Positions 5,609-20,947 of a stretch of DNA of 24,954 nt are shown piece by piece. Under the pieces are notes generated by a model. It was not told the DNA's origin and did not search any database. It saw only the letters and a program-made list of their open reading frames with translations. This DNA comes from Fragilaria crotonensis. Lineage: Eukaryota; Bacillariophyta; Fragilariophyceae; Fragilariales; Fragilariaceae. Both the position numbers and the translations under genes were made by a program. The stretch is taken from contig JAKSYS010000793.1 in NCBI GenBank assembly GCA_022925895.1, positions 1 to 24,954 on the forward strand, in the 5' to 3' direction. Within the stretch, counting starts at the first letter, position 1, and each line of letters begins with the position of its first letter.

Positions 5609-5984
5609 TTTTTTATAGATACTCATCCATGACAGACCTACAAATTGCCACGGAATGTTCGCCTGCAATTTATATGCAATGGCAGCAATGTCTCTGTATT
5701 AGTGGTCCGGATTACACTTCTGCACTATAGGCTGCTAACGTACATATGTACAAGTAACGAATCACAGTGGTGGTTCCGGTATTGGAAGTGGCATATTAGC
5801 CTACCGGTAGCTAGAGTCTGGCTAAGGTCAACGAAAAACATGCTCACCAACGATAAACCTGTACTACCAGTAATGTGGCTCTCCTGTGGAATATAGGCTG
5901 TATGGGAGATAGGTCAACAAAACGGCGTAGATATAGTTAAGGACAAATTCACAAAAGAGAAACACTCTTTCAGATCCCACAGCG
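5609..5984. other. Intergenic region
   Basis: No gene is visible between the unknown plastid protein and the terminator of the minus-strand tRNA. The stretch likely includes the 3' UTR of the upstream gene. Confidence 0.5.
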
Positions 5985-5997
5985 AAAAAAGTCAAAA
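5985..5997 (-). terminator. Pol III T-run terminators after the permuted tRNA
   Basis: On the minus strand a run of four T (5997-5994) and then six T (5990-5985) follow the 5' half of the tRNA and its short trailer. T-runs of four or more are the standard RNA polymerase III stop. Their place downstream of the 5' half, and the absence of a T-run between the two halves, fit one transcript that reads 3' half first. Confidence 0.65.
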
Positions 5998-6005
5998 GAG
6001 GAACA

Positions 6006-6091
6006 CCGTAGTCAGGCGCCTTGCCGTTGGGCCAACAGGTCGAGATGCAGCGCTTAAACCTGCCCGGGATTCGAACCCGGAATCTCCTGAT
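6006..6091 (-). tRNA. Circularly permuted tRNA-Arg (anticodon ACG)
   Basis: The minus strand first encodes the 3' half (6091-6056: position 38, anticodon stem TCAGG, variable loop AGATT, T-arm CCGGGTTCGAATCCCGG at 6080-6064, acceptor GCAGGTT, discriminator T), then 14 intervening bases (6055-6042), then the 5' half (6041-6006: acceptor GACCTGT, TG, D-arm with AACGGCAA loop, anticodon stem CCTGA, loop CTACGG). Joined 37-to-38 they give a full cloverleaf: acceptor 7/7 pairs (two G-U), anticodon stem 5/5, T-stem 5/5, D-stem 3 pairs plus the C13-A22 that I recall from plant tRNA-Arg(ACG). The B box GGTTCGAATCC (6077-6067) precedes the A box TGGCCCAACGG (6034-6024). Leader 6104-6098 pairs with trailer 6004-5998 over 7 bp; this leaves 3-nt bulges on each side with cuts expected after the second bulge base, exactly at 37/38. 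CCA is not encoded. The discriminator T is unusual. No normally ordered cloverleaf can be drawn here. Confidence 0.85.
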
Positions 6092-6409
6092 GGCTGAGTT
6101 CCTCATTGCCCATTTAGGGAAAATTAAGGTATTTAACGTCTCTCCTAAGAGGCACCGATACACTTATTGATTTCAGCTCCCGTTTGCTGGGCTGCACTCG
6201 AAATTCGCTTGAGGCTGTATGTCATATGTACTCAGGTACATTGTACTGATGTCATACGAGCAGATACGAGTACCAGTCGTACACGAAAAAAAATAACAAT
6301 TTGTCGACACCGTGCCCTGACCCTGTAATGATATCGTCACCAGCCTTTGTCTCTGTCACATCGCATCTACATTTGACGTTTGGCTCATGCGCATCCATCT
6401 GACGACATT
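6092..6409. promoter_or_regulatory. Intergenic region with AGTAC cluster
   Basis: This gap carries the leader of the minus-strand tRNA (pairing element at 6098-6104) and, at about 6226-6284, a cluster of GTAC and TGTCAT(A) words including a repeated pattern (TATGTCATATGTACT then TGTACTGATGTCATA). It is followed by an A-run near 6285. It is the probable promoter of the gene starting at 6410. Confidence 0.4.
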
Positions 6410-14673: not shown

Positions 14674-16770
14674 CTACGCTGCCACCTGAAGGGACCTGCA
14701 GCCAACTTCGAAATCTTCGCAGCAATCGCATTTGACATTCTTGTCTACGTAGATGCCTCCAGCGATACCGAGGTCGCACATGCCGGATGGAAGAGACCCA
14801 GAAAGGGTGGAAACTCCGAAAAAGTCGAACTTGTACAACACGTTAAGATGTACGAGCTCATGAGGCAACGTGCCACTAAAAAAGTTGTCTCCGCCGTCGA
14901 ATATTGTCAGAGCTGTAAGCATTCCCAATTCAGACGGCAAGGTGCCGCGAAAACCACTGAGGGATAGAAAAAGTTGCTCTAACATGAAAATCAACAATGT
15001 TCGAAGTTAGCACGTGCATTGGGCAAAGGCATTAATTTGGCAACGGTTTGACCTACCAAGTGATGTACACCTTCCAAGCTCACTTGGGATGCTGGTTCCA
15101 TCCATTACGCACCCGCGGAGCTCCAATATTTTAAGTGACGACCCCAAGCTTCCAATCTCCGTGGGAAGAGGCCCTTCGATTGGTGACAGATCGGCGTTGA
15201 AGGTTGCCAGATTTGTCAGGAGCCCAATTTCGGTTGGGATTGTTCCCCAGGTCTGCGTGACGGAGCAGTCGATATTCGCGAGACGCCGTAGCAGGCCTAT
15301 TTCATTGGGGATGGTGCCATCAATGGTATTCACGCTAATTGCAAAAGTTTCTAAATCATTCATTCAGTCTGAGTACGGCGGGCGAGCATATTGTTACATT
15401 CTTTGGGCCTCAGTATCGACTCACCTATGTCCTGCCAAGATGAAATCAGACTCCATGCGTCGCCTACGAACACGTTTGTCGAAACGTCGAATGTCTCTGG
15501 TGAGAACTGCCGTAAGAGTGCGTGCGCAAAATCACAATGTTGACACAATCCGAGTTTACTCACTAAGCTTTTTTAGCGACCTCAACCCGTCTGGAAATGA
15601 TCCAGATAGGAAGTTTAGTTCGAGCTTGAGTATCTCTGCGCCAAAGCGTGCGGTGAGCGTTAGACAGGTCGCGTAGCAAATCAGCAGGCAACAAGGTTGT
15701 TCATACATACCGAGATTGGTGAGCTTTCCAACATCAGCGTCAAGCTCTCCAGCAAATTCATTATTCGCGAGGTCTAATGACACCAGATTTGTTAGGGAAT
15801 ACAGTCCCTTTGGAATGGTACCTTCGATTCGATTTCGTGGCAAAGCGAGCAATGCTGTCGAGAGGCACCGGTATTGTAAGTGTTGGTGTTGATGTCTATC
15901 GCCACGACCTACCATCGCGGTGCGAATGTTAACACAGAACAGACTTACTAAGCGACGAGAGGAACCGAATTTCGTCCACGAGCGACCCGGTCAACAGCAC
16001 ATCAACCCCCAGGTGGAGCTCCTGAACCTGATCCCTGTCGTTACAAACAACTCGATCCCAGTCGCACTCATGCATACCCGGGTCATCGGCCCACCCAACG
16101 AAGTGCCATCCAGTCCCACCCATCGCGAAGTACAGGACCAAAAGTGCATACCGTTGTTCCAGACGAATTGTGTTGTTTAGAGAAATTCGAAGAGTGTCAG
16201 TGTATGTCATCCAATCGGTTGCGACGAGTTGAGCTGCTTCGGTTCAAGACGAAACGTATCGATGCCCAGAATGTTGACTCGAAGCTCTTGGAGATAAGTG
16301 TTCCCTTCGTCCGTTTTTGTCGACCCTTCTTTTGGAGAAGGTTCAACGCTTGTGACGGTATCATGGCCACGACTTGTGCAGTATAGAATGATTGCTGGTA
16401 TGCCGAGCGAGAGCACGACGGTGCCCGCCAACGCGACATATTTCCACGCGGGACAGCGATTGCATTGACGACACGTCGCACGATTACTTCGACCATCAGC
16501 AACTACCGGAGACGTCTCGTGTGGCTGGTGATTGGCTACACTTGTTTCCTGGTGATGGTGTTCGAGGTCTCCCATGTCGTTTGGCTGAGGCGCTAGCACA
16601 GCAACATGGCCATTGCCCTCATTCAAATGGACTACAGTAGGGATGGGAGCATGTGGTTCTTCGGAAGAGAGACAATAATCGTCAACAGAGTCACGCGTAT
16701 TCTCCACACGGACTGTAACTTCATCGCCTTCCCTTGGATAGCGAGCAATCGCAACATCAGGACTCATCAT
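14674..16770 (-). CDS. LRR membrane protein A (type II), frameshifted
   Basis: This is a probable surface protein: an N-terminal acidic cytoplasmic tail, one membrane segment (about residues 111-131), a short stalk, an LRRNT-like cap (RLEQRYALLVLYFAMGGTGW, HECDWDRVVC) and then leucine-rich repeats of the LxGTIPxEIG type, with a Cys-rich end (KCDCCEDFEVGC). Exons, all joined in phase 1: 16770-15949, 15854-15711, 15635-15564, 15350-15057, 14978-14674; introns 94, 75, 213 and 78 nt, with donors GTAAGT, GTATGT, GTGAGT and GTAGGT. Exon 1 has a frame break near 16243-16244: one missing base in coding GAACC. Adding one base gives FRLETEAAQLVATDWM, which aligns without gaps to FRLSADAPQSMATEWM of the neighbouring paralogue. 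Restored length is 545 residues. The longer frame begins with GTG, so the ATG at 16770 was chosen. Ligand and role are unknown; similar diatom proteins are presumed receptors or adhesins. Confidence 0.85.
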
Positions 16771-17880
16771 CGAGATAACAATTCGTCGTTCAGAAAAAGG
16801 CACGCTCGGACAATGTTGGACCACACATCCAAAAAGTAAATCACAGACATTTTCCTTGGGTCTAGTGTGTGATCAAAGTGGGACTCTTTGCTTTAAGAAC
16901 GTGGGCCAATCGGCGTCCGATAATGCTTGGTGGTAGCTGAGTCTTTCCCATTTGTTCAGTATAGATCGTACAGTCGTCACAACCTGGTGGCGCGTGACTA
17001 GAAACTTGGCCCACAAATTGTGTCCTGCTATATCCACTAAAATGGTATGTGCCGATGTGTGACTCTCACCCGACACGTCTTGCGAAGACCCAAGACTCGA
17101 CGAGTCGCAAGTCATGGGATGGGACGACCTACCAACCCGACTCCAGGATAGGAGCTTCTCGGCAACAGCACCTCCGTCGATTTTAACTCCTCACAAATAG
17201 AGCCGCATCCCATGAAAACAATATCAGTGGTACATGGCTGCGATGGGAGTTCACTGCCATCAAGAATGCGCACCACCATCCAACTGTTGAAACACAGCGG
17301 TAGTTAGGTGGTTGATGAGAGTGAAGGGGGATAAGGGATGATTGGCACTCGTGAGTCGTCACTGATGTGCAGGTTACAGGAAACCACTTCGAAAGGCCAA
17401 ATCAAGGGTTGGTTCTCCAGGCAGTTCCTTGTATACTTCTCTAGGATAACGTACAGGTAAGCAGAGATGAAGGTCATCCTGATATGACGGCTAGTATGTG
17501 TACATGTGACTTTGATGCCCTGCATGGAGCATACCGGAAACAAAGGGCAATCATTTTCGATGGTCATCTCCCGATGCTTTATGTAGCAAGCTATGCCTGA
17601 CAAGTCGAGCACAGGCTCTGCATTCCTGTCCGGTTGAGATTTTGAGGGACTGCTCCGAACTCCGAGCATCATGCAACTATTCCCAATATGGTTCACAACA
17701 TGTTTCAATCCTTACTTTTCCAAATTAACTATGGGACGAGATGAAACTAGAAAACAGACGCAGCAGCTGGTGTATCTTACATCTCCATGGGGGCCGTTGG
17801 AAAGTGTCAATGCCGTGCAGGTTTACAAAAGCGCCTTTCTCAAAACTTTTGAAACCTGCTTCGCGGCGATGCGAAGTATG
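16771..17880. other. Intergenic region between the two LRR genes
   Basis: This 1.1-kb gap contains the promoter of LRR gene A and the 3' flank of LRR gene B. Apart from a weak 80-codon frame (listed separately) I see no convincing gene. A longer minus-strand frame at 17304-17708 starts only with TTG, has no family motif and an uneven composition. Confidence 0.45.
16873..17115 (-). CDS. Weak hypothetical small ORF
   Basis: This minus-strand frame has an ATG at 17115 and 80 codons. Its composition is protein-like (HTILVDIAGHNLWAKFLVTR, NKWERLSYHQALSDADWP), with three Trp and balanced charge, but no recognised motif. It lies just upstream of LRR gene A on the same strand and could be chance or an unrelated remnant. 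Confidence 0.2.
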   Translation of the reverse strand: MTCDSSSLGSSQDVSGESHTSAHTILVDIAGHNLWAKFLVTRHQVVTTVRSILNKWERLSYHQALSDADWPTFLKQRVPL

Positions 17881-20021
17881 TTAAGAACAGCAAGCACAAT
17901 CTTGAAGGGTAACCCACTTGTCAGCAACCGCACATAGACCTTCAGGCACCGTCCCACTCATTCGTTCATTTCTGCCGAAATTGAATGACGTCACTTGACT
18001 CAACATCCCCATTTCAGAGGGTAGAGTCCCAGTGAAGGCGTTCTGGGCGGCATCGATTACATGCAATGAAGTCAGACTGCCAAGTTCGGATGGTACGGTA
18101 CCAGAGAAAGCATTTCCAGCGATTCCGAGATCAGCTGTGATCGTGATGGACGCAACAAAGAAATTTGAGTACACAGGAGATCACAGGCAAACAGCGAGCG
18201 ACCTTGACCGCAGCTGTTCACACCACTTACTGAGCATCGTACACAAGCCAATCTCTGTTGGAATAGTTCCACTCAGGACACAGTCGCTCAGCCGCAATTC
18301 CACTGGAATGTTGTGAGGAAAAACACATATTGAGTGATTATGTATGTCGTCGCATTGGATAGCACATCACATCCACAAGGCTTGCGCAACAGCAAAACAT
18401 ACCAAGAAACCTCAGATGTCCGATTTCGCTTGGAACTTTGCCCCGCACTGATGTCACGCGTCCATCGAGCACTGTTAAGGAGGTAAGCAGCCCAATTTCG
18501 GACGGAATCGTGCCCGCGATTAGTGTGCTTCCAAACGAGAGAAACTCTAAATGTTTGAGGACGCCGATTTCGGTGGGGATTGTGCCTGTTACATCGGAGG
18601 AGACGAGTGACAGAAAAACTGCGTCAATCGAGTAAGAAGGAACCACACCATCTGTTAGCTCAACGGTACAAAACGATACCCTCTGGGTGACGAACCAGCA
18701 CTGTCATCCTTACCCATATTTGGCAGTTTGCATATGATACGCATCATGTTTCCCCCAAGTGAAGTGGAATCCAGTATGAGTTTCGCTGCCAAAACATGTT
18801 AGGTGAAAGAACCCAAGGAGCTATTCACAAATGATGTCTTATACACTCACTAAGTTTCGTGAGCGACGAAAACGAGTCTGGTAAAGTACCGGTCAATGGG
18901 TTTGCCATAAGGTTCACAGATTCTTCACGATCCAGGAGGTGATTAGCAAATGCAAGAGGTTTTCGAGACCAATCACGTTCAGATTGCCACCATGACGTAC
19001 CAAGGTTCGACAACCTTTCGAATTCGGATGACACGCCCCCCTGGAGGTTATTTCCACCCAACTCTAGGCGAACTACACCGAGACAATGGTGTCAGAAGGG
19101 CAGAAAACAATCCATGACAAGTATGCTGCAGAAAGGAAGCCGTACATACCAAGATTAGACAGCGAAAACAGGACACCAGGTATTGTGCCATCTACAGAGC
19201 TTTCGTGTGTACTCAATGAAGCTGTGAGGAAGGGCAGATAATCGTGAGCGCATGCCTGTAACAATCGGAATCACTTGACGAGGCGCATCAAAGCAGTCGC
19301 ACTTACTCAGCGACGAGAGGAGAGCTATTTCTTCAACAAGAGTGCCCGTTGCCCTAATGAGGTCAATTTCAGTGACTTGCTTGGCCGAATCGCATCCAAC
19401 GTTCTCCCAGTCGCATTCGTGAGTTCCAGGAACTAACAAACTGGAGCTAGCAGGATTCAAGTTCATTCCAAAGTAGATGGCCAAGAGCGCGTACCGCTGT
19501 TCCAAGCGCGTTACATTGAGCTCAGCCTCGCACGCATTATCCTCCACTGCCATCCATTCCGTTGCCATGGACTGCGGCGCGTCGGCGCTGAGACGGAAGG
19601 CTTCAATCCCCAAAAAGGCACGACGTAGTTCATGTTGACATCTCTTCGCAGCGTCGGTTTTCGTAATGTTGACGGGGTCGGAGTTTTGTTCTAGAGATTC
19701 TTTGTTGTCCGGAGCGGTGAGCAATAACGCCGATGTTGTGATGATTGCCACAGTTATGGTGAAGATGACAAGCGGTAGGAACTTTCTCACCGTATTCGGA
19801 GGGTACACTTTCTTTCCGGGTGTGCCGCAGAGCAAAGATTTGCGCGGGCTTAGAAGTTCATAGGTTTCTGGGTGCTTTTCTTGCGGGGCTTCAGCAGTTG
19901 CATCCTCACGTGGTTCCACTGTTGGATTACCCTCAACAAAATCAGACGAACCTTCAGGATTTTCGTTATCGAAGTCATTGATGTCCCCAGGATGCGATAA
20001 TGCAGACAAGGAAGCAGTCAT
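17881..20021 (-). CDS. LRR membrane protein B (type II), intact
   Basis: Paralogue of the LRR gene A, 514 residues, same architecture: acidic N-terminal tail, one membrane segment (about residues 81-102, FLPLVIFTITVAIITTSALL), LRRNT-like cap (NVTRLEQRYALLAIYF, THECDWENVGC) and leucine-rich repeats ending in a Cys cluster (QDCACCS). Eight exons, all phase 1: 20021-19307, 19221-19150, 19072-19001, 18922-18851, 18785-18714, 18618-18403, 18302-18231, 18134-17881; introns 85, 77, 78, 65, 95, 100 and 96 nt, all GT-AG. Five internal exons are exactly 72 nt and one is 216 nt (three repeats). Each 72-nt exon is one 24-residue LRR. The frame stays open upstream of the ATG at 20021 as far as a TTG at 20225, so a further upstream exon with an earlier start is possible. 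The protein is probably a cell-surface sensor or adhesin; the ligand is unknown. Confidence 0.88.
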
Positions 20022-20947
20022 CGTTTGTCGAATACGTGGATTCGCGCTTCTCGCGCTATCTCCACCACGATGGATTTTGTCGATGTGGCCTGAGCGCGAA
20101 GCCAAGTTGTGGTGAGATCCAAATAAATCACGAGAGGAACGAACTGCTTGGTAAACTTGCTCAATTATAGACGTATTGACAGAACGAGGGGGCGCACAAG
20201 GAGATTCAGTTATTATGTCAAACAAATTGAATTCTCAGGAAATCAATTGTCCAGCCGTAAGGAGGATGTGAAAGGCGATGACGATGGCACCTGGTGGCGG
20301 AGGAAATGGGTTGGTGCCAATACGCATGAAATGAATTGGCATCGTTTCGACAAGCTCACCTAACTCCTCTCCTCCGATGGAAAGCGGAACTCTAACACTG
20401 CCGTCTCGGGCATATGCTAGTACGCTCAAGGATGTGAAAGCGGATTGTTGGGTGTGATCGTTTCCTGTGAACCTGAAATTCGAGGAATAAATGTGTACAG
20501 ATCTGTCGAGCTCGTATCTCGTACTTCAGACTTTTACACTATAACACGCCCGACATTACGAGGTCGAATGTGATGAAAATCTGCTTTACGAAGAGCGAAT
20601 AAAGCATTCTTGCGAGTACATGTCCTACTCCAGTACAGTGTGACTGGTGTACCTCTGCACTCCTATTAGTGCATAGTGCATAGTCTCACTGGCATATGGG
20701 GATTGGTATCATATCTTTATTATGCACTGCGGTAATTGTTGCAGAATCTTCGAACAACATTCTCCATTTCGCTTTTTTGTGATCACATAACACGTCATGG
20801 ATTTCGATTATTCTCGCGAACTTTGCATTGAAACGACACCGCCGGACGTTTCTTTCGGTATTTGTTGGGAGTGGATGGTTCAATACTCATGTACTTGTAA
20901 CCTGTGACGCAAAGGCTAGCTGATGTTCAACCTGGGGTTTGTCCACC
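20022..20947. promoter_or_regulatory. Divergent intergenic region before the two-pore channel
   Basis: This separates the start of LRR gene B (minus) from the channel gene (plus) and should hold both promoters. An AGTAC-type cluster lies at 20615-20655 (TACTCCAGTACAGTGTG, GGTGTACC). Part of 20022-20225 remains open in frame with LRR gene B. No other gene is convincing. Confidence 0.4.

Follow-up and report, generated by a model that had tools for sequence, protein, structure and literature searches.

A probable nuclear circularly permuted tRNA-Arg(ACG) gene in a diatom, among at least four permuted tRNA loci

Can a tRNA gene whose two halves stand in reverse order serve a diatom nucleus? The question is raised by a locus on the minus strand of contig C772, all 24,954 bases of which are referred to here as the window. 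The permuted layout is rare, having been described so far in one archaeon and a small number of red and green algae, and diatoms would add a supergroup. The origin and persistence of permuted tRNA genes are unsettled. The original prediction for this DNA was a circularly permuted tRNA-Arg(ACG) gene in a diatom-like genome. Our analysis leads to a similar but more specific reading: the locus is very probably a nuclear type II (37/38) circularly permuted tRNA-Arg(ACG) gene of an araphid pennate diatom, and one of at least four permuted loci.

What are the parts of the locus? Direct reading confirmed the predicted reversal, with the 3' half placed before the 5' half on the minus strand and 14 nt between them. 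From 6104 to 5985, the order is leader, 3' half, 14-nt spacer, 5' half, trailer, and T-runs. The features, all on the minus strand, are as follows.

6130..6136 (-): TATA-like TTAAATA, a possible upstream RNA polymerase III promoter, 45 nt ahead of the 3' half
6098..6104 (-): leader arm GAGGAAC of the putative bulge-helix-bulge h' helix, leader -7 to -13, from 7/7 pairing
6056..6091 (-): tRNA-Arg(ACG) 3' half, nt 38-73 (anticodon-stem 3' strand, variable loop, T arm with B box, acceptor 3' strand, U73), from the sequence, ARAGORN on joined halves, and a covariance model
6042..6055 (-): 14-nt intervening sequence linking the acceptor 3' and 5' ends, from the sequence; predicted to be removed by tRNase Z and RNase P
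6006..6041 (-): tRNA-Arg(ACG) 5' half, nt 1-37 (acceptor 5' strand, D arm with A box, anticodon-stem 5' strand, anticodon ACG), from the sequence, ARAGORN on joined halves, and a covariance model
5998..6004 (-): trailer arm GTTCCTC of the putative h' helix, trailer +2 to +8, from 7/7 pairing
5994..5997 (-): first T-run, a likely RNA polymerase III terminator, starting 9 nt past the 5' half
5985..5990 (-): second T-run (6 T), a possible back-up terminator, from the sequence

A T-run beyond the 5' half had been predicted, as had the stem pairing, which holds on inspection by eye: the acceptor stem is paired at 7/7 positions, with wobbles at G1-U72 and U7-G66, and the anticodon stem at 5/5. The T-stem is likewise paired at 5/5 and the D-stem at 3/4. 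The locus has U8, A15:U48, G18G19, U33, and T54T55C56, and CCA is not encoded. The rebuilt halves carry the features of a normal eukaryotic elongator tRNA (U8, R15:Y48, G18G19, U33, and UUC at 54-56). U73 is unusual, and the conventional Arg(TCG) gene of the same genome likewise ends in U73. The leader/trailer helix, the TATA-like site, a second Arg copy, and permuted Cys and Ile genes, all described below, go beyond what had been predicted.

How can such a gene be detected? ARAGORN called no tRNA on the raw window, and Rfam at gathering score gave no match; both scans are blank because they are blind to permutation. With the halves joined in conventional order, ARAGORN calls tRNA-Arg(acg). 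A permutation-aware covariance search, which had been suggested as a check, also finds the locus. The model used here, R2, was trained on 13 other conventional nuclear tRNAs of the genome, permuted in silico, with no permuted tRNA included, and it scores the window locus at 54.4 bits over its full length, with a rough E value of 2.8e-16. Together with the ARAGORN call on the joined halves, this score supports the reading as a circularly permuted tRNA-Arg(ACG). R2 also scores the second Arg copy on contig C48 (52.8 bits) and the permuted Cys and Ile loci (67.5 and 57.1 bits). An earlier permuted model, which had Arg(ACG) in its training set, gave 67 bits for the window and 63.8 bits for C48. 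This earlier model also matches tandem conventional Trp genes on C256 and C560 (56.5 and 56.6 bits) and gives up to ~36 bits to isolated halves of conventional tRNAs, so a model score alone is no proof of a permuted gene. A tandem-conventional-tRNA reading of the window was rejected because ARAGORN finds no intact tRNA there. A strict rule-based scan, with a rule devised after the loci had been seen, found one site in the window (both strands) and one in 430 Mb of simulated single-strand sequence. The Arg gene has those gene-level features of the type II permuted class that its sequence can show.

Do the flanks resemble a tRNA intron? In the canonical bulge-helix-bulge geometry at 37/38, the partner of trailer position +k is leader position -(k+5). 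Trailer +2 to +8 of the window locus pair with the leader at 7/7 positions in this k:k+5 register. The helix on C48 pairs at 6/7 and covaries with that of the window: there are double changes from A-U to G-C at -8:+3 and from G-C to A-U at -13:+8, and a break at -12:+7. The Ile leader and trailer pair at 6/7 in the same register as Arg, and those of Cys at 4/7 at shift 5 and better, 6/7, at shift 6. Over the four permuted loci the register total is 23 (7, 6, 4, and 6 of 7), with totals of 8-15 in the other registers from -1 to 13, and only 8 of 200,000 shuffles reached 23. The intron register is not strictly diagnostic, however, because two intron-containing tRNA-Tyr genes give just 4/7 each at the same register. 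The central helix of the bulge-helix-bulge has, by eye, 2/4 pairs, with 32 and 33 pairing with -3 and -4. The pairing indicates that a bulge-helix-bulge-like structure at 37/38, built from leader and trailer, is present in relaxed form. When left to fold freely, the window precursor favours another structure in the acceptor/D region (-40.4 vs -36.2 kcal/mol), and free-energy folding with longer flanks did not give the cloverleaf.

The second permuted Arg copy lies at G000:C48:50181-50268(-), unlinked to the window contig. Both halves are identical between the two loci (72/72 nt). The C48 spacer, at 16 nt, has diverged from that of the window; counted by eye on the blastn alignment, the spacer, 13-nt leader, and 8-nt trailer together differ at 9/35 aligned positions plus a 2-nt indel. 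The difference between 0/72 changes in the halves and 9/35 in the surrounding parts gives a Fisher p of 2e-5. Could these be two alleles of one locus? A blastn comparison of the 25-kb window with 30 kb around the C48 copy returned a single match of 106 columns (~105 bp) at the tRNA. An allelic origin was rejected, as the flanks beyond ~105 bp share nothing at E 1e-3, and with similarity confined to the tRNA the two loci are dispersed paralogues.

At least four loci of the genome are permuted tRNA genes, two for Arg(ACG) and one each for Cys(GCA) and Ile(UAU). The permuted tRNA-Cys(GCA) is at C118:50149-50230(+), with all modelled stem pairs standard and a U38 that is unusual by eye. The permuted tRNA-Ile(UAU) is at C726:13849-13930(+), with one acceptor mismatch. 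Neither was in the covariance training sets, and both appear from their features to be of the same type as the Arg gene. The junction is at 37/38 in all four loci, the spacers are 7-16 nt long (14 in the window, 16 on C48, 10 in Cys, and 7 in Ile), a T-run starts 7-11 nt past the 5' half in 4/4, and a TATA-like site stands 39-58 nt upstream in 4/4. Among conventional nuclear tRNA rows, 40/40 have a T-run within 40 nt and 20/40 a TATA-like site within 100 nt upstream, so the TATA-like site is weak evidence. Beyond the complete permuted Cys gene, extra Cys 5' halves and their trailers form a partly decayed array (G000:C118:50149-51333(+)), the halves being at 50290-50321, 51210-51245 (94%), and 51298-51333 (92%).

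The Cys and Ile loci were among four matches of a genome-wide search with the YrlA family at E<=10, the other two being plastid tandem tRNAs. Rfam RF02553, YrlA, describes a bacterial non-coding RNA with a permuted tRNA-like fold, and presumably it is this fold that makes the model respond to the diatom genes. The search scored 46 of 1468 candidates, and the two Arg loci were not among the matches listed; it is thus not exhaustive, and further permuted genes may exist. Sub-threshold responses of the model also occur in 13 of 14 control prokaryotes, so a match with it nominates a locus and no more. RF02553 is, in effect, an unintended and unspecific detector of eukaryotic permuted tRNA genes that missed both Arg genes genome-wide.

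Whose genome is this? The assembly comprises 62.1 Mb in 881 contigs. C881 (150 kb) carries plastid genes, with rpoB and atpB reading frames, and C880 (108 kb) is presumed to be the mitochondrion. C880 also has six identical tRNA-Lys(TTT) genes on one strand, ~1-1.4 kb apart (C880:69508-75687). For plastid RpoB, the first organism-named matches are Licmophora sp. and Thalassionema nitzschioides (86% each; best match overall 98%). For a pseudouridine synthase encoded ~2 kb from the permuted Arg locus, the first organism-named match is Thalassiothrix antarctica (58%; best overall 93%). These organism-named matches agree with the predicted diatom origin, and the host is best read as an araphid pennate diatom. 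Elsewhere in the window, ORFs on the minus strand at 14674-16824 and 18338-20225 resemble, by eye in the ORF list, pieces of leucine-rich-repeat receptor-like genes.

Are the permuted genes needed? ARAGORN calls in the nuclear stretches examined add up to 44 distinct conventional tRNA genes, some pairs of which may be alleles; the Rfam tRNA search of the genome scored 63 of 2258 first-look candidates. In this incomplete census, none of the 44 has anticodon ACG or GCA. The conventional Arg anticodons among them are TCT, TCG, and CCT, and the intact conventional tRNA-Arg(ACG) family that had been named as evidence against the prediction does not appear. The same partial census recovered no Val, Asp, Glu, Pro, or recognised initiator Met in either layout. 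In a blastn search of the genome for Arg(ACG) at E<=10, the two permuted loci alone were found and no conventional gene. The Arg D-arm pattern, with up to 3 mismatches, has 10 sites, namely the 2 permuted genes and 8 without a tRNA call. A pattern of ACG followed by a B box gave 5 matches vs 18 in the reversed control; one overlaps the permuted Ile locus on C726, and none is a conventional Arg(ACG), as judged by eye and by ARAGORN where scanned. A survey with the D-arm pattern TAGCTCAG..GG..AGAGC gave 51 matches, of which 28 are nuclear; conventional genes account for 26 of these and the Cys locus for 2. The initiator-Met D-arm pattern gave 15 matches vs 17 in the reversed control, with no tRNA called in the 5 that were scanned, and the Gly/Val/Asp/His pattern gave 10 matches vs 52, with 4 conventional tRNAs in the 9 scanned. 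Of 15 matches in a Ser/Leu D-arm survey, 7 were scanned and all were conventional, one is the known Ser gene on C874, and one is plastid; no permuted Ser or Leu was seen in this diatom. An exact 30-mer of the 5' half had 0 matches in viral_contigs and 0 in prokaryotic genome_contigs, neither of which was built from diatoms.

In five ORFs of the window, CGU and CGC together make up 40 of 2251 codons. With the census incomplete, it may be that Arg(ACG) and Cys(GCA), both needed by the cell, come from permuted genes alone. It seems to us somewhat likelier than the contrary that permuted tRNAs are an established working class in the diatom lineage, and that nuclear decoding of CGU/CGC (Arg) and UGU/UGC (Cys) runs wholly via permuted genes processed through circular RNA. 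Is there processing machinery? Two tRNA-Tyr(GTA) genes (G000:C16:42670 and C350:12175) carry introns of 12 and 17 nt, with exon edges set at 37/38 by hand; hence, ordinary tRNA splicing substrates exist in the nucleus. Two matches to PF01974 (tRNA_int_endo) exceed the cut-off, on C870 and C68, and by these domain matches two splicing-endonuclease subunit genes are present in the genome. A search for a Trl1-type ligase (PF09511) gave no match, and its controls were equally silent.

Could the locus be something other than a permuted gene? It might consist of shuffled tRNA pseudogene fragments. In one published model of origin, a tandem pair loses its outer halves (PMC3978253), and C118 offers an example of decaying extra Cys 5' halves. 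However, the unlinked Arg copies have kept 72/72 nt while spacer and flanks changed, their leader/trailer helix has been retained with compensatory change, and the partial census turned up no intact Arg(ACG) gene that could have been the donor, which makes pseudogene fragments very unlikely. An assembly artefact or foreign DNA, such as a misjoined contig or a green or red algal contaminant with permuted tRNAs, has a probability close to negligible: C772 is short and is one of 881 contigs, but the halves and spacer lie within 86 bases, the arrangement recurs on C48 with further permuted genes on C118 and C726, and the protein encoded ~2 kb away has a diatom as its best organism-named match.

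The locus might alternatively yield a stable regulatory RNA rather than a tRNA, as a YrlA or Y-RNA-like mimic. Bacterial YrlA RNAs, which bind Ro-type proteins, contain a domain resembling a permuted tRNA. When 5900-6200 was scanned permissively with Rfam, YrlA did come first among 8 matches (22.5 bits, E 0.013, full length), yet this score is far below the gathering threshold of 69, which the best listed genome-wide (33.2 bits) does not reach either. Moreover, a mimic would not account for the anticodon stem-loop, the geometry at 37/38, or the failure to find conventional Arg(ACG) and Cys genes. We regard it as extremely unlikely.

How would the permuted tRNA-Arg(ACG) gene work? RNA polymerase III would produce a single linear RNA with leader, 3' half, spacer, 5' half, and trailer, ending in the T-run. 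Paired with each other, leader and trailer would resemble both ends of a tRNA intron at 37/38, allowing the tRNA-splicing endonuclease to cleave both exon edges, and a ligase would link nt 37 to nt 38 to form a circle. RNase P and tRNase Z would remove the spacer, CCA would then be added to the tRNA-Arg, and A34 would be converted to inosine, reading CGU, CGC, and CGA. We infer that the permuted tRNA-Arg is transcribed, circularised, ligated, processed at its ends, edited, and aminoacylated, and that the gene is probably functional. Much of this scheme has been described for permuted genes elsewhere, with a linear Pol III transcript, a junction most likely cut by splicing endonuclease, and a circular intermediate (Soma 2014, PMC3978253), and with spacer removal likely by RNase P and tRNase Z (PMC3978253).

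What are the implications? Should conventional genes for Arg(ACG) or Cys(GCA) be absent altogether, translation in a culturable algal group could not do without circular-RNA processing. The two unlinked Arg copies and the Cys locus with its decaying halves are material for testing tandem-duplication and retro-insertion models of origin. The blank ARAGORN result on the window suggests that diatom assemblies contain needed tRNAs which standard finders overlook. Among the open-licence papers listed, none announces a permuted tRNA gene of a diatom or other stramenopile in its title or the start of its abstract. The word "diatom" does not occur in the permuted-tRNA review PMC3978253 or in the review PMC4033280.

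How does the diatom compare with known systems? The nucleomorph of Amorphochlora is a later addition to the record of permuted tRNA genes (PMC4494063). Auxenochlorella, a green alga and likewise a later addition, also has permuted nuclear tRNA genes, which were noticed through an incomplete tRNAscan-SE set (PMC12633428). The red alga C. merolae and the diatom share the 3'-half-first order, an upstream TATA-like element, and a downstream T-run. C. merolae has junctions at 20/21, 37/38, 50/51, and 59/60, whereas all four in the diatom are at 37/38, and the circular intermediate has been demonstrated in C. merolae (PMC3978253). Type II genes were described in the prasinophytes Ostreococcus and Micromonas by Maruyama et al. 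2010 and are tabulated in Soma 2014 (PMC3978253). The diatom belongs to another supergroup (stramenopiles), and its Arg(ACG) and Ile(TAT) are absent from that table (PMC3978253). Both have the 37/38 junction, a relaxed bulge-helix-bulge, a permuted tRNA-Cys(GCA), and short spacers (11-64 nt in prasinophyte type II genes, 7-16 nt in the diatom), and an extra Cys 5' half lies downstream both in O. lucimarinus and on C118 of the diatom (PMC3978253).
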